From Arthrobacter sp. P2b (lineage in GTDB: Bacteria > Actinomycetota > Actinomycetes > Actinomycetales > Micrococcaceae): 64,000 bases of DNA. Positions 49,909 through 58,736 of this stretch are shown here, in pieces; positions within the stretch are counted from its first letter, which is position 1; every line of letters begins with the position of its first letter. Below the pieces are notes generated by a model. That model ran no database searches. It was given only the letters and a program-made list of their open reading frames with translations, and was not told where the DNA came from. The stretch spans positions 62,001 to 126,000 of the forward strand of contig NZ_FVZL01000004.1 of assembly GCF_900168295.1 (NCBI RefSeq). Direction: 5' to 3'. The position numbers and the translations under genes are program-made.

Positions 49909-49946
49909 AAAGTAGTGGGGTCCGCTGTGGCGTGCCCCACTACTTT
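49909..49946 (+). terminator. Hairpin between gudD and the MFS gene
   Basis: AAAGTAGTGGGG and CCCCACTACTTT form a perfect 12-bp stem with a 14-nt loop, 23 bp after the gudD stop. No U-run follows. It may partially terminate or protect the upstream mRNA, so the permease would be made at a different level from the enzymes. Confidence 0.6.
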
Positions 49947-50009
49947 CCTGTGCCCCCGCATTGGGCCCCGCAGCCGGCCTGCGTTATCTATCCAAAGGAA
50001 ATACATTCA

Positions 50010-51359
50010 ATGAAGTCTGCAGACAATGCTGTCTCGGACGTGGCGACAGCCACGAAGAAGTTCTTCAAACGCGTTCTGCCCATCATGCTGGTCATGCTGG
50101 TCTGCAACCAGCTGAACCGGTCCAACATCGGCTACGCCCAGGACCACCTCCAGGCGGATGTGGGCATCGGCGCCGCCGCCTACGGGTTCGGTGCGGGCCT
50201 GTTCTTCATCGCCTATGCCATCTTTGAACTCCCCAGCAACGTGATGATGGAAAAGTACGGCGCCAAGGTCTGGCTGACCCGCATCATGGTCAGCTGGGGC
50301 ATCGTTTCCTTCCTGATGGCGTTCGTGCAGAACGAAACCATGTTCTACGTCCTGCGCTTCCTGCTGGGTGCCGCGGAGGCCGGCTTCTTCCCCGCCGTCA
50401 TCTTCTACTTTGCCCGCTGGGTTCCGGCGGGCCAGCGCGGCAAGGCCACCGCGATCTTCATCGCGGGCTCCTCCATCGCCGCGGCAATTTCCGGCCCCAT
50501 CGCCGGCATGCTGCTCAGCCTCCACGGCACCCTGGGGCTGCGCGGCTGGCAGTGGCTCTTCGGCTTCGAAGGCGCCCTCTCCGTGGTGGTGGGCATGGCC
50601 GTGTTCTTTGTCCTGGACGCCCGCATCAAGGACGCCAAGTGGCTCTCCCCCGCCGAAAAGGACGCCCTGTCCCAGGCCATCAGCGACGAGGACGCACAGC
50701 ACACCACGGCCGGCGGCGCCAAGATCAACCGCTGGAAGATGCTGCTCAACCCGCAGATCCTGCTGCTGTGCGGCATCTACTTCTCGGTGCAGCTGTCCAT
50801 CTACGCCAACACGTTCTGGCTCCCCAGCATCATCAAGCAGATCCCCGGCACCACGGACCTGACCGTGGGGTTCCTGTCCTCCATCCCGTGGGTCTGCGCC
50901 GTCTTCGCCATGTACTTCGCCGCTAAATTGCAGGACAAGGCCAAGTCCAAGCGCCCGCTGCTGGTGGTTGCCCTGCTGGTGGCAGCCGTCGGCACGTTCG
51001 CCGCCGCCATCGCATCTCCGGTCATGGCCCTGGTCTTCCTGGCCATCGCGGCCATGGGTTTCAAGAGCGCCTCGCCACTGTTCTGGACCATCCCGCAGTC
51101 CGGCCTGCACCCGATGATCCTCGCCCCGGCCATCGCCATCATCAATTCGCTGGGAAACCTGGGCGGCTTTGTGGCCCCCTTCGGCTTCGGCATCATCAAG
51201 GAGCAGACCGGCAGCGTTATCCCCGGCCTGTTCGCGCTGGCCGCCGCCTCCACCATCGCTGCCGGGCTGGTGTACTTCCTGAAAGAGCGCCGAACCGATG
51301 GCGCTCCAGTGCAGGTTGAGGAAGCCGCCGTGCAGGAACCGGTCGCCAGCCGCGCCTAA
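50010..51359 (+). CDS. MFS transporter, anion:cation symporter type (probable glucarate permease)
   Basis: 449 residues from the ATG at 50010 (AAAGGAA upstream). Twelve membrane helices; the N-terminal LVMLVCNQLNRSNIGYAQDHLQADVGIG, ELPSNVMMEKYGAKVWLTRIMVSWGIVS and GAAEAGFFPAVIFYFARWVPAGQRGKATA are typical of ACS-family permeases such as GudP and relatives. Position after gudD suggests D-glucarate as substrate. With tctCBA this makes two uptake systems in one regulon region. Confidence 0.93.
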   Translation: MKSADNAVSDVATATKKFFKRVLPIMLVMLVCNQLNRSNIGYAQDHLQADVGIGAAAYGFGAGLFFIAYAIFELPSNVMMEKYGAKVWLTRIMVSWGIVSFLMAFVQNETMFYVLRFLLGAAEAGFFPAVIFYFARWVPAGQRGKATAIFIAGSSIAAAISGPIAGMLLSLHGTLGLRGWQWLFGFEGALSVVVGMAVFFVLDARIKDAKWLSPAEKDALSQAISDEDAQHTTAGGAKINRWKMLLNPQILLLCGIYFSVQLSIYANTFWLPSIIKQIPGTTDLTVGFLSSIPWVCAVFAMYFAAKLQDKAKSKRPLLVVALLVAAVGTFAAAIASPVMALVFLAIAAMGFKSASPLFWTIPQSGLHPMILAPAIAIINSLGNLGGFVAPFGFGIIKEQTGSVIPGLFALAAASTIAAGLVYFLKERRTDGAPVQVEEAAVQEPVASRA

Positions 51360-51500: not shown

Positions 51501-51574
51501 TTCGGTCGTTAAGCTGGCAAAAGACCCTGTGATTGCAGTCACTGAACCCCCTTTGTGCCCGGCAGGAGCCCGCC

Positions 51575-52399
51575 ATGACCATCCCCGCAAACCCGCCCGC
51601 CGCCGTCGTGCGTCCGGAGAACCCGGCCGCGTTGTCCCCCGCCCAGGCGCGGGCCCTCTTCCGGGCTGGCCTGGTGACGCCCACGTCAGGGTGGAGTGCA
51701 GGCTACACGCAGGCCAACCTGATGATCGTTCCGAAGGCGCAGGCCTTCGACGTGCTGCTGTTCGCGCAGCGGAACCCCAAGCCGTGCCCCGTCCTGGGGG
51801 TGCTCGACGCCGGCGAGACGAGCAGTGCGCTGCTCGCCGGCGGTGACATCCGGACTGACGTGCCGAAGTACGCCGTCTACGAAAACGGCGTGAAGGTGGA
51901 CGAGCCAACGGACATCACGGAGTACTGGCGGGATGACCTGGTCACCTTCATCGTGGGCTGCAGCTTCACGTTCGAGGCCGCGCTGCAGGAGGGCGGCATC
52001 CGCATCGCCCACATCGACCAGGGCGTCAACGTCCCGATGTACCGGACCTCCGTCCGCTGCGAACCGGCCGGCGCCCTGGCCGGGCCGCTGGTAGTGTCCA
52101 TGCGGCCTGTTCCGGCCTCGCAGGTGGCCGACGCCGTCCGCATCACGTCGCGCTACCCCGCCGTCCATGGCGCCCCGGTCCACGTGGGCAATCCGTCCGA
52201 GATTGGCATTGCGGACCTGTCCCGTCCCGACTTCGGCGATCCCGTCCGGATTCCGGAGGGGCACATTCCGGTGTTCTGGGCATGCGGGGTGACCCCGCAG
52301 GCAATGGTGATGGAATCCCGGCCGGCACTGGCCATCGGGCACGCGCCGGGGCACATGCTGATTACGGACGCCCGGGACAGCTCCTACCTGGTGCCCTAG
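51575..52399 (+). CDS. Putative hydro-lyase / D-glutamate cyclase, DUF1445 family
   Basis: 274 residues from the ATG at 51575. Family segments: [68 protein letters not shown], and [33 protein letters not shown]. Relatives include the C-terminal domain of human D-glutamate cyclase, which makes 5-oxo-D-proline from D-glutamate. The neighbouring pxp genes for 5-oxoprolinase, and a shared operator, strongly support an oxoproline role here. Confidence 0.88.
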
Positions 52400-52423: not shown

Positions 52424-53137
52424 TTAGGCAGGGTCCACGGCGGCCGGCCCGGCCGGGACAGCGCCGATATGGACCAGCAGCTCATGCTCAGCGGTGTCCA
52501 GGTAGCGCCGGAGCTCGGCGGCTGCCTCTTCGCGCTGGCCGGCACGGATTTGCTGCACGAGGGCGACGTTCCGGTCCACGTAGTGGCTGTGGAAGTCAGG
52601 CGTGGTGGCCATCGCATGGAAGACCAGGCGCATTTCCGCGAGCACCTTTTCCATCAGCTCGGACAGTGATGCGCTGCCGGACAGGGCCACCAGGGCCTTG
52701 TGCAGCTCCTGGTTGGCGTCGGCCATCTCGGGCACCGAGTTGGCAGCCTTGGCCGCCTGCGCCCTGGCAACAATGGCCTCCAGGTGTTCCAGCGCCCCGG
52801 GCGGCATCTCGCCCCATTGGACGGCGGCCGGCTCGATCAGCCGGCGAACCCGGTAGATCTCCCGCACATCCTCAGCTCCGGGAGCGGCAACATAGACGCC
52901 CCGGTTGGGAATCCGCTGCACCATCGACTCCCCGGCCAGGACCGTAAAGGCCTCGCGCAGAGTATTCCGGGAAACGCCGAGGGCTTCAGAGAGCTTCTGC
53001 TCCGAGAGTTTGGTCCCCGGCGGAAGCTCACCGGCCGAAATGCGCGAGCGGAGCACGCTGGCCACCCACGCCCCCGTGTGGGCGTGGGCTGCCTGGGCGC
53101 CGTCGGCGATCCCCTGGAGTGCTGCGTTCATGGGCAT
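52424..53137 (-). CDS. GntR-family regulator with FCD domain
   Basis: 237 residues. N-terminal winged HTH (LRSRISAGELPPGTKLSEQKLSEALGVSRNTLREAFTVLAGESMVQRIPNRGVYV) and an all-helical FCD effector domain (EHLEAIVARAQAA, DANQELHKALVALSGS, NVALVQQIRAGQREEAAAELRRYLDTAE) with metal-binding His/Asp positions. It is the last gene of the pxp operon and convergent with the D-glutamate cyclase gene, so it is the obvious candidate to bind the palindromes at 51470 and 57400. Confidence 0.94.
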   Translation of the reverse strand: MPMNAALQGIADGAQAAHAHTGAWVASVLRSRISAGELPPGTKLSEQKLSEALGVSRNTLREAFTVLAGESMVQRIPNRGVYVAAPGAEDVREIYRVRRLIEPAAVQWGEMPPGALEHLEAIVARAQAAKAANSVPEMADANQELHKALVALSGSASLSELMEKVLAEMRLVFHAMATTPDFHSHYVDRNVALVQQIRAGQREEAAAELRRYLDTAEHELLVHIGAVPAGPAAVDPA

Positions 53138-53183: not shown

Positions 53184-54917
53184 CTATGCGATCCGGCAAA
53201 GGACGTCACCGCGGCCGACGACGTTGCCGGGCTCCTGCGGGCCCCGCGCCAGGGTGCCGCTGCGGTGGGCGGGCACCACGGTTTCCATCTTCATCGCCTC
53301 CAGCACGGCCACCGGCTGGCCGGCCTCAACGTGTTCGCCATCCTCGGCCACCCATTTCACCAGGGAACCTGACATCGGTGAGGCGAGTTCGGCGTCGTCC
53401 TCTTCCTCGGCCGCCGCAGAGGAGTGGCCTGCGCCGCCGCCTCCGCTGAGCAGGGCTTCGTACAGCTTCGCCGGCAACCCGAGCTGCACGGCCTTGCCGT
53501 CCAGCTCCACCGTGAAGGTCCTGCGGGCGGCACCGGGCTGGGTGCGGGCTATCTCCGGAGAGGCCGCCAGCTGCTCCGCGAATTCATTCTCGATCCAGGT
53601 GGTGTGCACGCCCAGTCCTTCCTCGGCCGTGAAGGCGGGATGGCGGACCACGGCACGGTGGAACGGCAGGACGGTGGGCAGCCCCACGATGCGCATCTCC
53701 TCGAGCGCGGCGGCGGCGCGGCGGAGCGCCTGCGGCCGGTCCTCGCCGTGGACGATGAGCTTGGCGAGCAGGGAATCGTATTCACCCGGGACCACGGAGC
53801 CGGACCGGACGCCGGAGTCGACGCGGATGCCGGCGCCGGTGGGCGGTTCAAAGGCCTCAATGGTGCCCGGGCCGGGGAGGAAGCCGCGGGCCGGGTCCTC
53901 GGCATTGAGCCGGAATTCGATGGCATGGCCGCGGGGCTCGGGGTCGGACGTGATGCCAAGGACGCCGCCGGCGGCGATGCGGAACTGCTCGCGGACCAGG
54001 TCCACGCCGGACGTTTCTTCGGTGACGGGATGCTCCACCTGCAGGCGGGTGTTCACCTCAAGGAAGGAGATGATCCCGTCCTTGCCCACCAGGAACTCGA
54101 CGGTCCCGGCGCCGTGGTAGTCCGCTTCCCGGCAGATCGCCTTGGCGGATTCGTGGATCAGCGAGCGCTGCTCCACTGTGAGGAACGGTGCCGGGGCTTC
54201 CTCCACGAGCTTCTGGTTGCGGCGCTGCAGCGAGCAGTCGCGGGTTCCCAGGACCACCACGTTGCCGTGGGTATCGGCCAGGACCTGCGCTTCGACGTGC
54301 CGGGGCTGGTCCAGGAACCGCTCCACAAAGCACTCGCCGCGGCCGAACGCCACAGTGGATTCGCGGACCGCGGATTCGAACGCGTCTTCCACGTCCTCCA
54401 TCCGCCGGGCCACCTTCAGTCCCCGGCCGCCGCCGCCGAACGCGGCCTTGATGGCCACCGGCAGGCCGTATTCCCGGGCGAAGGCCAGCACTTCCTCGGC
54501 ATTGGCTAGGGGTCCGTCGCTGCCGGGCACAAGCGGCGCGCCGGCCCGGACGGCGATCTCCCGGGCGGTCACCTTGTTGCCCAGGGCACGGATCGAATCG
54601 GGCGACGGACCCACCCACGCCAGGCCAGCATTGATGACGGCTTCGGCAAAGTCCGCATTCTCGGAGAGGAACCCGTAGCCGGGGTGGATGGCGTCCGCAC
54701 CTGAGCGCTTGGCGGCGTCCAGGAGCTTGGCGATGTCCAGGTACGTTTCGGCGCTGGCGGTGCCGCCCAGAGCGTACGCCTCGTCAGCGAGCCGCACGTG
54801 CAGGCTGTCGGCGTCCGGGTCGGAGTAGACGGCGACGGACCCGAGCCCGGAGTCCGAGCACGCCCGGGCAATCCGCACTGCAATTTCGCCGCGGTTGGCA
54901 ATCAGGACTTTTTTCAT
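53184..54917 (-). CDS. Biotin carboxylase fused to biotin carboxyl carrier protein
   Basis: 577 residues. Residues 1-450 are biotin carboxylase: [34 protein letters not shown], the ATP-grasp Gly-rich loop [29 protein letters not shown]. The C-terminal biotinyl domain carries EAMKMET with the biotinylated Lys. An acidic linker ([18 protein letters not shown]) joins them. It overlaps pxpBC. This AccA3-like layout normally works with an acyl-CoA carboxyltransferase, absent here; the only carboxyltransferase-like partner in the operon is PxpBC. Confidence 0.95.
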
Positions 54918-56593
54918 GGCTGGCTTCCTTCAAACGCGGTGGCGCCTACGGCTGATTCACGGGGGGTTTCCTGGCGGGCTGCCTGGTCAACAACTTCCTG
55001 GTCAACAGGCTCCAGGGTGCGGGGGTCCACGATGGTGAACTCCACGTGGCGCCCGGGCGGCAACTGGGCAGCCAGGGGCAGGTCTTCGGGCACGACGACG
55101 GCGATCACCGGGTATCCGCCGGTCACCGGGTGGTCGGCCAGGAACAGGACCGGGTGTCCGTTGGGCGGCATCTGCAGTGCCCCGGCCACCGTTCCTTCAC
55201 TGGGCAGTTCACCGTCCCGGGCGCGTTCAAGGGCGCGGCCCTCCTCCGGCGGGGCGAGCCGGACACCGATCCGGTTGGACTGCTCGGTGACCAGCCACTG
55301 CTGGCCGGTGAAGAGACCGATGGCTTCGGCGTCGAACCAGTCATCACGGGGGCCGAGTGTCACGCGCAGGGTGGTGGTCGATGACCCGGCTTCCAGCATG
55401 CCGTCCTCCGGTATTCCCACCGGCCAGACTCCTGTTATGGGGGCAACGGGCACGAAAGTCCCCGCCGCCAGCGGGGCCGGTCCGATGCCGGACATCGAAT
55501 CGCTGGAACGGCTGCCCAGGACCGGGGGAACATCGAACCCGCCGCGCACGGCCAGGTAGCTCCGCACGCCGGCGCTGGGCGGACTGATGGTGAGCGTCTC
55601 GCCGTCGAGCAGGGCAAAGGGTGTATGCATGGCCGGGTGCCGCAGGAGCGTCCGGGATTCGTCGCGGATTTCAAGGACAGCCGGAGCACCGGCAACAGCC
55701 AGCACCTGGTCGCCATCGGCCCGCACGGCGAGGCCGCCGAGGAGGTTTTCGACGACGGCAGCATCGGGCCCGTTGCCTGCCAACCGGTTCGCCTGACGGA
55801 CGGAGCGCTGGTCGGCAGCACCGGACACGGAGACACCGAGGTCCCCGAAACCGGGCCGGCCCAGGTCCTGGACCAGGGACTGCAGCCCCGGGGCCTGGAC
55901 GGTGAGCCCGGAGCGGGATTCCGTGTTTTCGGGAGAAGCCGGCTTTACCTCTTCAGCTGAGGGGGCTGCCACTGCTTCCCGCACCGCGACGTAGCGGACG
56001 GTATCGCCCGGGCGGACCAGTGCCGGGGACTCCCGGCCCAGGTCCCACATCACCGCGCTGGTGTGGCCGAGGAGCTGCCAGCCGCCCGGGGACTGACGCG
56101 GGTAGACGGCGGAGAATGCGCCGCCAAGCGCCACGGAGCCGGCGGGCACGGCGGTGCGGGGCGAGCTGCGGCGGGGCACGTTCAGCGAGCCGTTCTCGCC
56201 CACCAGGTAGGTGAAGCCGGGGGCAAAGCCGCCGAACGCCCCGGTCCATGCCTGCCCGGTGTGGGCGGCAATCACGCCGTCGGCACCCAGTCCGGTAAGC
56301 CGGCCCACTTCGGCGAGGTCTTCGCCGTCGTACACCACTTCGATGGTGACCTCGTTGCCGGTGCCATGGTGGCGGGCCGTGAGGTCAAGGTGCGGAAGCA
56401 GTTCGCGGGCGGCGCCGGTGTGGAACCGGGAAGCAAACTTGACCAGCACGGTGGCAGCGCCGGCGATGGCATCCAGCTGGCCCGGCAGGGGGTCGGCCTC
56501 CAGCCGGTGGTGCAGGGCGAGCACCGACGCGAGGTCGGTCAGCTCTACGAGGACCGCACGGGGACCGGCCCAACGGATACCGGTGATGCTCAT
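54914..56593 (-). CDS. pxpBC: 5-oxoprolinase subunits PxpB-PxpC fusion (KipI-KipA type)
   Basis: 559 residues. Residues about 1-210 match PxpB/KipI ([67 protein letters not shown]). Residues about 230-540 match PxpC/KipA ([65 protein letters not shown]). PxpABC cleave 5-oxoproline to glutamate with ATP. These domains also resemble the carboxyltransferase part of urea amidolyase. Coupled to pxpA by a 4-nt overlap. Confidence 0.95.
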
Positions 56594-57348
56594 GCAAAGC
56601 TCCGGACGGTGACGCCGGCTTGTTCGAGTCCCGCGCGTACCGCTCCGGCCATGGCAACGGCACCCGGGGTGTCACCGTGGACGCAGATGCTGTCCGCCTG
56701 GACCTGCAGCACGGACCCGTCACGGGCAATGATCGTCCTGTCGGTGGCGAGCCGGACCATGTTCTCGGTGATGGCGCTGTGGTCGTGCAGTACGGCACCT
56801 TCCTCCCGGCGGGAGACGAGGGTTCCGTCGGGGTTGTAGGCGCGGTCCGCGAAGGCTTCGGAGAGCGGCGTAAGGCCCCGCGCAGCGGCCTTTTTCCCTG
56901 CAACGGCGCCCGGGAGGAGCAGCAGCGGGAGGTCCGGGTTGAACGCATGCACGGCGTCCACCACCGCCTGGGCGTGGACCTCGTGGTGCACGATGGTGTT
57001 GTAGAGGGCACCGTGGGGTTTGACGTACTTGACCTCGGCGCCGGCTGCGCGGGCAAGGGCCTGCAGCGCGCCGAGCTGGTACAGGACATCATCGGCAAGC
57101 TCGGTGGCGGAGCAGTCGAGGAACCGGCGGCCGAAGCCGGCAAGGTCACGGTAGCCCACGTGCGCGCCGATGGTAACGCCGGCGGCGACAGCATCCCGGC
57201 AGGTGCGGGCAATGGTGGAAGGATCGCCCGCGTGGAAGCCGCAGGCCACGTTGGCGCTGGTCACGTGGCGGAAGACGGCGGCATCGTCGCCCATGGTCCA
57301 GTTGCCGAAGGATTCCCCGACGTCGCTGTTCAGATCGATGAAAGGCAT
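56590..57348 (-). CDS. pxpA: 5-oxoprolinase subunit PxpA (LamB/YcsF family)
   Basis: 252 residues, standard length. Family motifs: [65 protein letters not shown] and [10 protein letters not shown]. First gene of the operon pxpA-pxpBC-BC/BCCP-gntR. The GntR-type palindrome lies 52-66 bp upstream of its ATG, a position suited to repression. Confidence 0.97.
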
Positions 57349-57506: not shown

Positions 57507-58736
57507 TTACTCCCCGGTGATCACCAAGGCGACACTGTGCCCGCCGAAGCCGAAGGCGTTCACCAGGCCGGCCCGGGGATTTCCCGCCGGCAGGGCGTAC
57601 GCTTCCTCGGTGATGACGTTCAGGTCCACTTCGGGGTCCTGCGCCTCAACGTTCAGGGTGCCCGGAAGCTGGCCGGTCCGCAGGGCTTCAAGCACAACGA
57701 CGGCGGCCAGCGCGCCGGCCCCGCCCAGCAGGTGGCCGGTGTGCCCCTTGGTGGAGGTGACGGGTAGGTCCGCGCCGAAGATCGCGTTGATGGCCTGGCC
57801 TTCGAGCCGGTCCCCCACCGGGGTGGAGGTGGCGTGGGCGTGGACGAAGCCGATGTCCGCGGGCTCCATGCCCGCCGACTCCAGGGCCTTCTGCATCACG
57901 CGCCGCTGCATCGCGGGGTCTGCCGCCACGATGTCGTTCGCGTCGGAGGTGACCGCGCCGCCGGCTACGGCTCCCAGCACCAAAGCGCCGCGGGCGCGGG
58001 CGTGCTCTTCGCTTTCCAGCACCACGACGCCGGCGCCTTCCGCGAGAACAAAGCCGTCCCGGCCGCCGTCGAACGGGCGCGAGGCCCGCTGTGGATCGTC
58101 GGAGCGGGTGGACAGTGCACGGATCTGGGAGAAGCCGGTGATCACCAGGTCGTTGACGGAGGCGTCAACACCGCCTGCAATGACGACGTCGGCAGCGCCG
58201 GAGCGGATCATCTCGGCTGCCTGGACAATCGCCTCGGCGCCGGATGCGCAGGCGCTGACGGGCGTTCGGGCGCCGCCGCGGGCGCCGAGGTCGATGGACA
58301 CCCAGGCCGCGGGGCCGTTGACCATGAGCCGGGTCAGGGTATGGGGAGACACCTTGCGGGGCCCGGATTCCGCGAGGGTGCGATCCTGTTCCAGAGTGGA
58401 GCCAAGGCCGCCGTACGCGGAGCCGATCACCACGGCGAAGCGTTCCGGGTCCACCTCAGGGGCGCCGGCCTGCTTCCACGCTTCCCGCGCGGCAATGAGC
58501 GCGAGCTGGCCGCAGCGGTCCATCCGCTTGATCTCGCGGGTGCTCAGGTGCTCGGAAAGGTCGGCGGGCGCCTGGCCGGCGATCTTGACGGGCAGCTGCT
58601 CAGCCCACTCCTCCTCCAGGGCGGCGATGCCGGACTGCCCGGCCAGGAGGGCCGTCCAGGTTTCGGCCACCGACGATCCGAGCGGGTTGATGGTCCCGGC
58701 ACCGGTGACCAGCGCGCGTGGTTGTGATGCTGTCAT
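57507..58736 (-). CDS. fabF: Beta-ketoacyl-ACP synthase II
   Basis: 409 residues. Condensing enzyme of fatty-acid elongation. Catalytic triad: Cys in VSACASGAEAIVQA, His in HAHATSTPVGD, and His in STKGHTGHLLGGAGALA. N-terminus ALVTGAGTINPLGSSVAETW and C-terminus NAFGFGGHSVALVI are as in FabF. It lies 6 bp after prfC on the same strand, away from other fatty-acid genes, so it may be an additional synthase rather than the main FabF. Confidence 0.95.
   Translation of the reverse strand: MTASQPRALVTGAGTINPLGSSVAETWTALLAGQSGIAALEEEWAEQLPVKIAGQAPADLSEHLSTREIKRMDRCGQLALIAAREAWKQAGAPEVDPERFAVVIGSAYGGLGSTLEQDRTLAESGPRKVSPHTLTRLMVNGPAAWVSIDLGARGGARTPVSACASGAEAIVQAAEMIRSGAADVVIAGGVDASVNDLVITGFSQIRALSTRSDDPQRASRPFDGGRDGFVLAEGAGVVVLESEEHARARGALVLGAVAGGAVTSDANDIVAADPAMQRRVMQKALESAGMEPADIGFVHAHATSTPVGDRLEGQAINAIFGADLPVTSTKGHTGHLLGGAGALAAVVVLEALRTGQLPGTLNVEAQDPEVDLNVITEEAYALPAGNPRAGLVNAFGFGGHSVALVITGE

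Follow-up and report, generated by a model that had tools for sequence, protein, structure and literature searches.

Three minus-strand genes of the window (the whole stretch of DNA analyzed here, 64,000 nucleotides of Arthrobacter sp. P2b) form one operon that, according to open reading frame (ORF) calls and Pfam matches, encodes a LamB/YcsF protein (PxpA), a carboxyltransferase (CT) fusion, and a biotin carboxylase with a biotin carboxyl carrier domain (BC-BCCP). Judging from sequence, we lean slightly towards the view that the three products constitute one biotin-dependent lactam-opening enzyme, which would N-carboxylate 5-oxoproline (or a close lactam) before PxpA opens the ring. 5-Oxoproline is a waste form of glutamate. 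Glutamate and glutamine give rise to it spontaneously (PMC13274462), and among bacteria PxpABC is a widespread means of reopening it.

The operon starts with the PxpA-like LamB/YcsF gene (positions 56590..57348, minus strand; 252 aa; Pfam and NCBIfam), followed by the CT fusion gene (54914..56593, minus strand; 559 aa; Pfam), in which CT_C_D (PxpB-like) precedes CT_A_B (PxpC-like), and by the gene of an AccA3-like BC with a C-terminal BCCP (53184..54917, minus strand; 577 aa; Pfam). Both junctions, PxpA/CT fusion and CT fusion/BC-BCCP, are 4-base gene overlaps. The ORFs, Pfam matches and overlaps bear out the original prediction that a gene for BC plus a biotinyl domain lies inside an oxoprolinase-type operon and overlaps the CT gene. 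A GntR/FCD regulator gene (52424..53137, minus strand; 237 aa; Pfam), 46 bases 3' of the BC gene, possibly encodes a PxpR counterpart. Convergent to the operon is a gene of the DUF1445 or 'D-glutamate cyclase' family (51533..52399, plus strand; 288 aa; Pfam PF07286, NCBIfam NF003969). The MFS transporter encoded at 49932..51359 (plus strand; Pfam MFS_1) is a possible substrate importer; it had a homologue in 0 of 37 BC-linked survey loci (E 1e-15) and is not conserved with the operon. Neither a true NRAMP query nor Pfam gave an NRAMP match in the window. A ketoacyl synthase gene just upstream of the operon (57507-58736) was considered as a hint of lipid chemistry and dropped, its homologues being found in 0 of the 37 BC-linked loci.

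The CT fusion holds the CT_C_D and CT_A_B domains in one chain (Pfam). It had been called a PxpB-PxpC fusion; the fusion of the two domains stands, but the protein is not clearly PxpB/PxpC by NCBIfam, scoring 119 against the PxpB equivalog (TIGR00370; cut-off 145.55) and 168.6 against the PxpC equivalog (NF045499; cut-off 500). These cut-offs are uninformative as a test of true PxpB/PxpC, because the separate PxpB-PxpC pair of the same genome (C21) fails likewise (118.6 and 141.9, respectively). The AlphaFold2 model of the fusion (pLDDT 90.3) matched M. smegmatis 3mml (Z 39.4) and 5i8i, the urea amidolyase of K. lactis (Z 36.2, with an rmsd of 1.8 across 305 residues), the latter match being in keeping with the predicted likeness to the CT half of urea amidolyase. 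Two alignments were searched for CT residues that would mark biotin dependence, and none separated BC-linked from BC-less forms. When 13 of the 38 AccA3-type rows and seven rows with separate BC were compared (the last five rows of the output being gap artefacts), E. coli PxpC differed from the CT_A_B columns conserved in both BC-linked kinds solely at V500, by a V/I exchange. Since it keeps nearly all such columns, the sequence is no marker of biotin dependence. E. coli also differs at several columns fixed in the 44-row CT clade described below (e.g., R416, W419, E466, H488, and P489), and these are mostly common to BC-less actinobacterial CTs too.

The window PxpA matched Pfam LamB_YcsF with 331 bits and passed the cut-off of the NCBIfam PxpA subfamily NF003814 (360 bits vs 226). 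D9, E12, H39, K110, H112, D168, H224, and D226 were invariant across the BC-linked PxpA rows; the PxpA tree was a 'quick' tree without bootstrap. Beyond the window operon, the genome has two more PxpA genes and the C21 PxpB-PxpC pair. The PxpA of the C21 set carries Ala at the position of Lys110.

The window BC has all 12 examined catalytic residues, which, with their numbers and roles, we take to be those known from work on E. coli AccC, and its biotinylation motif is EAMKMET. The 12 residues were kept in 48/48 rows (the window, 37 survey loci, and 10 re-fetched or second copies). The BCCP acceptor Lys (AMK[MT]) was found in the window and in 36 of the 37 survey loci, the exception being frame-broken. 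Mycobacterial AccA3 chains (5mlk and 30hu) were the closest solved chains. In the BC tree, eight housekeeping AccA3 rows formed their own clade (100/99) with the window BC outside, and both fell in a joint 29-row clade (100/100). Its sequence thus relates the dedicated BC-BCCP to AccA3. In the five proteobacterial genomes searched, no BC apart from the CT-linked ones was AccA3-like (57-65% identity for these, at most 51% for the rest), and Acidovorax had two such copies, both CT-linked. Each of the four genomes searched that lack a BC in the operon had one AccA3-like copy (58-60%).

To see how widespread the pairing is, 108 PxpA loci were surveyed. Fused CT with BC was found at 36 loci, split CT with BC at one, fused CT without BC at 12, and split CT without BC at 38; at the remaining 21, a CT was absent from the 9.5 kb around PxpA. 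Fusion of the CT was compared with BC presence by a Fisher test on the counts 36, 12, 1, and 38, which ignores kinship among loci. Because 80 named loci were chosen by likeness to the window PxpA, their share with BC is not a frequency, and several loci scored as without BC or CT (e.g., L061) end at contig ends. The window CT and the 37 BC-linked survey CTs (38 rows) grouped together in a clade of 44 rows (SH-aLRT 96 by the quick method), which spans Micrococcales and Proteobacteria. The other six rows lacked an operon BC, one of them at a contig end. This 'quick' tree, without bootstrap, comprised the survey loci, E. coli, C21, and the urea carboxylase of the genome, with separate-BC loci left out.

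In the class sample of 60 genomes, 29 had PxpA, the window's own included; 28 of 29 matches outside it were fetched, a 48-position fragment being left out. A BC lay near PxpA at one of these 28 loci and at 27 there was none nearby, some loci stopping at contig ends. CT genes were found in 34 of 120 pseudomonadotal genomes. The analysis continued with 29 of the 34, after removal of the centre genome, which is BC-linked too, and of four genomes whose only frames were long ones of urea-carboxylase size. A BC lay within 6 kb of 11 of the 31 CT loci of these 29 genomes that were not urea carboxylases, vs 0.28 expected (at one of the 11, the CT is 5.2 kb away on the other strand), and 20/31 had no BC nearby. 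The survey counts, the CT clade and this excess rule out that the linkage is due to chance or is a local oddity. The BC-linked form is a minority form. Within the BC-linked branch the association is tight rather than loose, crosses phyla and involves two kinds of BC. The original wording 'in this lineage' was too narrow for a pairing seen in Actinomycetota, Pseudomonadota, and Bacillota.

The second kind consists of an AccC-like BC and a separate BCCP linked with pxp genes in Rhizobium and Lactiplantibacillus and at five genome loci; nine plasmid regions, hand-picked out of 50 rows, were examined. The acceptor Lys was present in all seven separate BCCPs. The AccC-like BCs stood apart from the AccA3 branch in the BC tree, where separate BCs and AccC-type enzymes formed a fairly supported group (82/91) with the Lactiplantibacillus BC as a long branch. 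BC genes within such pxp clusters carry the annotation 'acetyl-CoA carboxylase'. In one paper, an extra BC and BCCP and a pxpB-pxpC cluster of L. pentosus are given as separate items (PMC12427679). That the partnership recurs elsewhere, in some cases with a different biotin protein, suggests biotin-dependent carboxylation for this version of the enzyme.

The gene neighbours bear on the substrate. An NRAMP homologue was found at 19/37 BC-linked loci (true NRAMP query alone), a D-glutamate cyclase family (DUF1445) gene within 9.5 kb at 15/37 vs 11/38 split, BC-less loci, and a GntR homologue anywhere in the fetched stretch at 33/37 vs 18/71 other loci. Neighbour families were built from 111 of 151 script-called ORFs in 19 of the 37 BC-linked loci. 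In C. glutamicum, an NRAMP protein (PxpT), PxpABC, and a GntR regulator (PxpR) serve 5-oxoproline (PMC13274462). The neighbours of the BC-linked loci are thus those of 5-oxoproline operons and favour 5-oxoproline over an unrelated substrate, which goes against the earlier alternative that the enzyme has another substrate.

Based on the domains and conserved residues, the reaction would proceed in three steps. With ATP and bicarbonate, the BC domain would first load a carboxyl group onto the biotin of its own BCCP. The CT fusion would then transfer the carboxyl group from carboxybiotin to the ring nitrogen of the lactam, presumably 5-oxoproline (L, or the D form that the neighbouring cyclase family makes) or a closely related lactam. 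Finally, PxpA would hydrolyze the ring amide so activated, leaving glutamate once the N-carboxy group has departed as CO2. PxpA would then be to the CT fusion what allophanate hydrolase is to urea carboxylase. In relatives without a dedicated BC-BCCP, AccA3 itself probably serves, as suggested by PDB entry 9yx5.

The enzyme may instead be a biotin-dependent carboxylase of another ring, such as 2-pyrrolidinone or a substituted lactam, which we consider unlikely. The extra PxpA genes and the second PxpB-PxpC pair mean that one set could be a 5-oxoprolinase and the other not, and the possible importer encoded in the window is an MFS protein, with no NRAMP match obtained there. A fungal lactam system, LamA/LamB, is known. 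However, BC-linked relatives carry NRAMP (19/37) and D-glutamate cyclase family (15/37) genes, and a eukaryotic-type oxoprolinase (Hydantoinase_B) was not found in the genome. Furthermore, the Ala at Lys110 of the C21 PxpA makes the C21 set likelier than the window set to have changed its substrate.

Biotin-dependent lactam carboxylation as such is opposed by several points. B. subtilis PxpABC was reportedly reconstituted by Niehaus in 2017 from three proteins alone. Most pxp loci have no nearby BC, the CT shows no signature, and ATP hydrolysis is reported for co-purified PxpB-PxpC (PMC8453981). The CT pair of 9yx5 sits on an acyl-CoA carboxylase complex in which PxpA was not found by sequence, a urea phenotype is published for the related mumC gene, and one chain of the P. 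putida 5-oxoprolinase deviates in size from the CT fusion (see below). Phosphorylation of 5-oxoproline by PxpB/PxpC is a working assumption in PMC13274462. PxpA and the CT fusion could be a classical PxpABC using ATP-dependent phosphorylation without biotin, in which case the BC-BCCP would be a regulator, a spare copy of AccA3 or simply a passenger. This is also the direction of the shared CT_A_B residues of BC-linked and BC-less forms and of the six clade rows without operon BC, one at a contig end. We nevertheless regard it as improbable, as a passenger would hardly have kept every BC residue and the biotin Lys in different phyla, nor would a second, AccC-type BC with BCCP be expected beside other pxp genes. 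AccA3 is still present in the four genomes without an operon BC, and a related CT pair is bound to the AccA3-containing complex of 9yx5.

A broader view, which we hold to be improbable, is that all PxpABC enzymes, also in E. coli and B. subtilis, are of the carboxyltransferase type and borrow a cellular BC-BCCP (AccA3 or AccBC) as ATP-using subunit, with N-carboxy-5-oxoproline as the general intermediate; the lineages with an operon BC would then just have made the partnership private. This view fits 9yx5, AccA3 in genomes without operon BC, the recruitment of BCs of two kinds, and the fact that E. coli PxpC retains almost all CT_A_B columns that both BC-linked kinds conserve. Against it stand the reported reconstitution of the B. 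subtilis enzyme from three proteins and the ATP hydrolysis reported for co-purified PxpB-PxpC (PMC8453981), the latter making the view slightly less probable.

It is very improbable that the operon encodes a urea carboxylase or urea amidolyase, as published for the A. baumannii mum operon (mumTLUHC; urea carboxylase plus allophanate hydrolase): the CT shares the fold of urea carboxylase, and deletion of mumC (BC-BCCP) impaired the use of urea as nitrogen source, but deletion of mumH did not (PMC5050338), yet the MumH counterpart in Acinetobacter sp. NIPH 2100 is a CT and the MumC counterpart there matches BC and BCCP only; urea-carboxylase-type BC-CT-BCCP proteins occur elsewhere in that genome and in the genome of the window; a Pfam scan of six window proteins gave no match to an amidase (allophanate hydrolase) domain; and BC (536) and CT (150) score far under the TIGR02712 cut-off of 1303.85. 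The other, BC-CT-BCCP protein of the window's genome scored 1766 against this model, which spans BC-CT-BCCP in one chain. A 594-aa amidase-like ORF (named by eye) adjoins this true urea carboxylase on the same contig.

If the pxp branch is biotin-dependent, N-carboxylation as in urea carboxylase would be the natural mechanism, and the mum operon, published as a urea carboxylase, would have to be reconsidered. The label 'acetyl-CoA carboxylase' now on BC genes of pxp clusters calls for caution in annotation.

The operon shares with PxpABC of B. subtilis, E. coli, and C. glutamicum the PxpA (LamB/YcsF) protein and two CT halves and, across the operon family, the GntR regulator and the D-glutamate cyclase and NRAMP neighbours. 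It differs in that its CT halves are fused and a dedicated BC-BCCP is present; a need for biotin is not described for PxpABC in the literature found, and no proposal of a biotin-dependent PxpABC turned up in the literature searched, which covered few subscription papers and some sources in part. Urea carboxylase/amidolyase (K. lactis 3va7 and 5i8i) has BC, BCCP, the same CT fold, and many of the CT residues, whereas the window chains are separate, the BC belongs to the AccA3 branch, and PxpA takes the place of the amidase partner.

The P. putida 5-oxoprolinase is reported to consist of component A, with chains of 64 and 51 kDa (a hexamer of dimers), and component B of 82 kDa, and no biotin or bicarbonate need is reported in the available part of the source (PMC8453981). 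At four BC-linked Pseudomonas loci, predicted sizes were 61.6-62.1 kDa for BC-BCCP and 27 kDa for PxpA (~81 kDa as a trimer), both from guessed starts, and at most 56.8-57.6 kDa for CT, from stop-to-stop frames. Compared by size only, the P. putida components are nearer to BC-BCCP, CT fusion, and PxpA trimer than to unfused PxpB and PxpC (23.9 and 34.4 kDa in E. coli); the 51-kDa chain is ~6 kDa off the CT fusion. These chain sizes are a weak hint to the substrate.

The Acinetobacter mum operon appears to be a BC-linked pxp system, and its urea reading seems to fit the domains poorly. The gene order in Acinetobacter sp. NIPH 2100 (NRAMP, PxpA, DUF1445, CT fusion, BC-BCCP) matches T-L-U-H-C, the A. 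baumannii operon being compared by description; the H counterpart is here a CT and the C counterpart a BC-BCCP without CT. A. baylyi is likewise reported to carry the mum operon (PMC5050338). Counterparts of L, H, and C are present in the window, where MFS replaces NRAMP and the DUF1445 gene is convergent. PDB entry 9yx5 is described as 'long chain acyl-CoA carboxylase complex from M. smegmatis with MSMEG_0435-MSMEG_0436 bound'; no paper on it was found in the literature searched, which covered few subscription papers. No PxpA was found in the complex by sequence, its CT halves are separate, and AccA3 is shared with acyl-CoA CTs. Its CT pair is 42-50% identical to the window fusion and is bound to an AccA3-containing complex; biotin dependence of the pxp branch would offer a reason why a PxpB/C-like pair sits on that carboxylase.

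The operon comprises three reverse-strand genes: a LamB/YcsF (PxpA) gene (56590-57348), a fused carboxyltransferase (CT) gene in which CT_C_D (PxpB-like) precedes CT_A_B (PxpC-like) (54914-56593), and a biotin carboxylase-BCCP (BC-BCCP) gene (53184-54917). Adjacent genes overlap by four bases at each junction, and the domains were found, bearing out the original prediction that a gene for biotin carboxylase (BC) plus a biotinyl domain overlaps the CT fusion gene. All 12 BC residues listed by E. coli AccC numbering were present in the window BC-BCCP, and its biotinyl motif is EAMKMET. Its closest solved protein is AccA3, the mycobacterial acyl-CoA carboxylase alpha subunit. The closest solved proteins to the CT are T. 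thermophilus TTHA0988 and M. smegmatis Msmeg0435-0436, and its AlphaFold2 model (pLDDT 90.3) resembles the CT of urea amidolyase (Z 36.2). A GntR/FCD regulator gene lies 46 bases downstream of the BC-BCCP gene; beyond it, on the opposite strand to the operon, are a DUF1445 ('D-glutamate cyclase') gene and an MFS transporter gene, the latter shared with 0/37 BC-linked survey loci (PxpA loci with a CT and a BC gene alongside). On the operon strand, 158 bases upstream of pxpA, is a beta-ketoacyl synthase gene (57507-58736), followed by an RF3-type release factor gene; no homologue of this synthase was found among the 37 BC-linked loci.

The genome has three PxpA genes, in the window and on contigs C3 and C21, and three CT_C_D genes, in the window, on C21, and in a true urea carboxylase (1251 aa). 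Therefore, the genome has no more than two complete PxpABC-like sets, counting the window operon, and a urea carboxylase gene at another site. No Hydantoinase_B match was found in the genome, and thus no eukaryotic-type oxoprolinase was seen. Six genes contain Biotin_carb_C, including the window gene and an AccA3-like copy; the BC domains of these two are 66% identical. The C3 PxpA (L015:6888-7637; 64% identical to the window PxpA) stands alone, with neither CT nor BC nearby, and in the PxpA tree it groups with good support with other Micrococcaceae PxpA genes, most of them lone. The C21 PxpA (49% identical) adjoins separate PxpB and PxpC genes, forming a second PxpA-PxpB-PxpC set (L013:5061-7586). 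It carries Ala at the Lys110 position (APHG for KPHG), where nearly all other PxpA have Lys; a changed substrate is likely for this set.

We surveyed 108 PxpA loci together with their flanks; 80 came from the named genomes nearest the window PxpA and 28 from 60 genomes sampled across the class. A fused CT with adjacent BC-BCCP was present in 36/108 and a broken CT with BC in 1/108; the others had a fused CT without BC (12/108), separate CT halves without BC (38/108), or no CT in reach (21/108). The window and the 37 BC-linked rows fell in one 44-row CT clade (SH-aLRT 96 by a quick method without bootstrap), made up of Micrococcales plus a branch of Proteobacteria that has Cryobacterium beside it; the clade also contains six fused CTs without BC, one at a contig end. 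A spread sample of 120 Pseudomonadota genomes supplied 29 genomes with 31 non-urea-carboxylase CT loci; 11 of these loci had a BC within 6 kb, versus 0.28 expected from BC gene number, and 20 had none. The proposed coupling of CT and BC thus recurs, but most loci of the class lack it: in the spread class sample, only 1/28 had the BC-linked form. In one actinomycete (L134), PxpA follows a CT_C_D gene and the closest CT_A_B match is ca. 9 kb off; adjacency of the CT halves may therefore not be required. Three PxpA genes (L238:5995-6747, L239:5989-6753, and L240:5995-6723) had no annotated CT within 6 kb; their neighbors are TRAP transporters (Thermus and Phaeobacter plasmids) or, in Pseudoalteromonas, a glycoside hydrolase 3 gene. 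PxpA may also act with partners besides PxpB/C.

Two kinds of BC accompany these operons. The first, that of the window, fuses BC and BCCP and belongs to the AccA3 branch: one clade (100/100) united 21 pxp-linked rows with 8 AccA3 rows, the latter in their own subclade (100/99). In five proteobacterial genomes, the CT-linked BCs were the only AccA3-like ones (57-65% identical to the window BC; the rest ≤51%), and therefore these BCs travelled with the operon. The second kind, a free AccC-like BC and a free BCCP joined to pxpB, pxpC, and pxpA, occurs on Rhizobium and Lactiplantibacillus plasmids and at five genome loci. Its seven BCs grouped with AccC-type enzymes (82/91 for that group), away from the AccA3 branch, and 7/7 examined BCCPs have the acceptor lysine. 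The BC tree needs four changes of BC kind, two forced by well-supported branches; this, with the tree placement, indicates acquisition from at least two sources. Of the sequence evidence, this argues most strongly that the CT would need carboxybiotin. The biotinylation site is AMKT in L066, L069, and L125 (Bowdeniella, Rothia) and AMKM in the other intact survey rows. A Rhizobium cluster has an extra 145-aa BCCP-like protein beside BC and BCCP (L236:3824-4261), which by eye seems to lack the biotin lysine. Klebsiella plasmid L234 has a BC-linked pxp operon whose BC, absent from the gene table, was found in translation, and a second BC-BCCP gene (L234:1524-3725) beside a DUF1989 gene, with its N-terminal part missing and touching an IS1 copy.

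Given the established domains, residues, overlaps, clade, and repeated association, BC-BCCP would form carboxybiotin, CT would move the carboxyl group onto the lactam nitrogen, PxpA would hydrolyze the N-carboxylated lactam, and CO2 would then be lost. That PxpABC works unaided with BC as a passenger keeps some weight: BC-less loci outnumber BC-linked ones, B. subtilis PxpABC is reportedly active from its three proteins, and of the CT_A_B columns that both BC-linked kinds conserve, only one is changed in E. coli PxpC. ATP hydrolysis is also reported for co-purified PxpB-PxpC (PMC8453981). Because these CT residues are nearly unchanged in E. coli PxpC, there is a slim chance that every PxpABC borrows the cell's biotin carboxylase.

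For the biotin-dependent route, 5-oxoproline is the likely substrate, judging from the neighborhood. A GntR homologue accompanied 33/37 BC-linked loci versus 18/71 of all others; compared with split, BC-less loci, NRAMP occurred in 19/37 versus 11/38 and DUF1445 in 15/37 versus 11/38. In our analysis, these neighbors are those of 5-oxoproline operons; C. glutamicum uses PxpABC, the NRAMP protein PxpT, and the GntR protein PxpR for 5-oxoproline (PMC13274462). The NRAMP may feed metal rather than substrate, since YcsG of the B. subtilis pxp operon is reported to be a manganese importer (PMC10448178).

Urea fits poorly. Juttukonda et al. 2016 (PMC5050338) described the A. baumannii mumTLUHC genes as an NRAMP (T), L, U, an 'allophanate hydrolase' (H), and a 'urea carboxylase' (C). 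This order is matched by NRAMP, PxpA, DUF1445, CT fusion, and BC-BCCP in the surveyed Acinetobacter sp. NIPH 2100. If roles carry over, H would be the carboxyltransferase and C would have none. Since mumH deletion leaves urea use intact but mumC deletion does not (PMC5050338), urea as the carboxylated substrate is then hard to reconcile. The surveyed Acinetobacter also encodes two proteins of urea carboxylase type, each combining BC and CT in a single chain; one, translated whole, includes BCCP.

PDB 9yx5 ('Structure of the long chain acyl-CoA carboxylase complex from Mycobacterium smegmatis with MSMEG_0435-MSMEG_0436 bound') has AccA3 and both CT halves among its chains, a probable physical precedent for CT-BC partnership; sequence comparison found no PxpA among its chains. 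The M. smegmatis CT pair is induced ca. two-fold under nitrogen limitation (PMC4617892). Four BC-clade genomes without an operon BC each have exactly one AccA3-like protein (58-60%), which would fit AccA3 serving in trans. In the two-component 5-oxoprolinase purified from P. putida, component A (64 and 51 kDa chains, a hexamer of dimers) hydrolyzes ATP with oxoproline, and component B (82 kDa) is needed for ring opening (PMC8453981). Predicted sizes at four BC-linked Pseudomonas loci are 62 kDa (BC-BCCP), ≤57 kDa (CT), and 27 kDa (PxpA; trimer 81 kDa); the unfused E. coli proteins are 24 kDa (PxpB) and 34 kDa (PxpC). The match is a lead on the substrate and no more, because the 51 kDa chain is 6 kDa off the predicted CT fusion and no dependence on bicarbonate is reported for the P. 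putida enzyme (PMC8453981). The unrelated caprolactamase CapAB needs bicarbonate for ATP and caprolactam hydrolysis (PMC8453981), which sets a precedent for a role of bicarbonate when a lactam is opened by an enzyme that is not one of the biotin enzymes.
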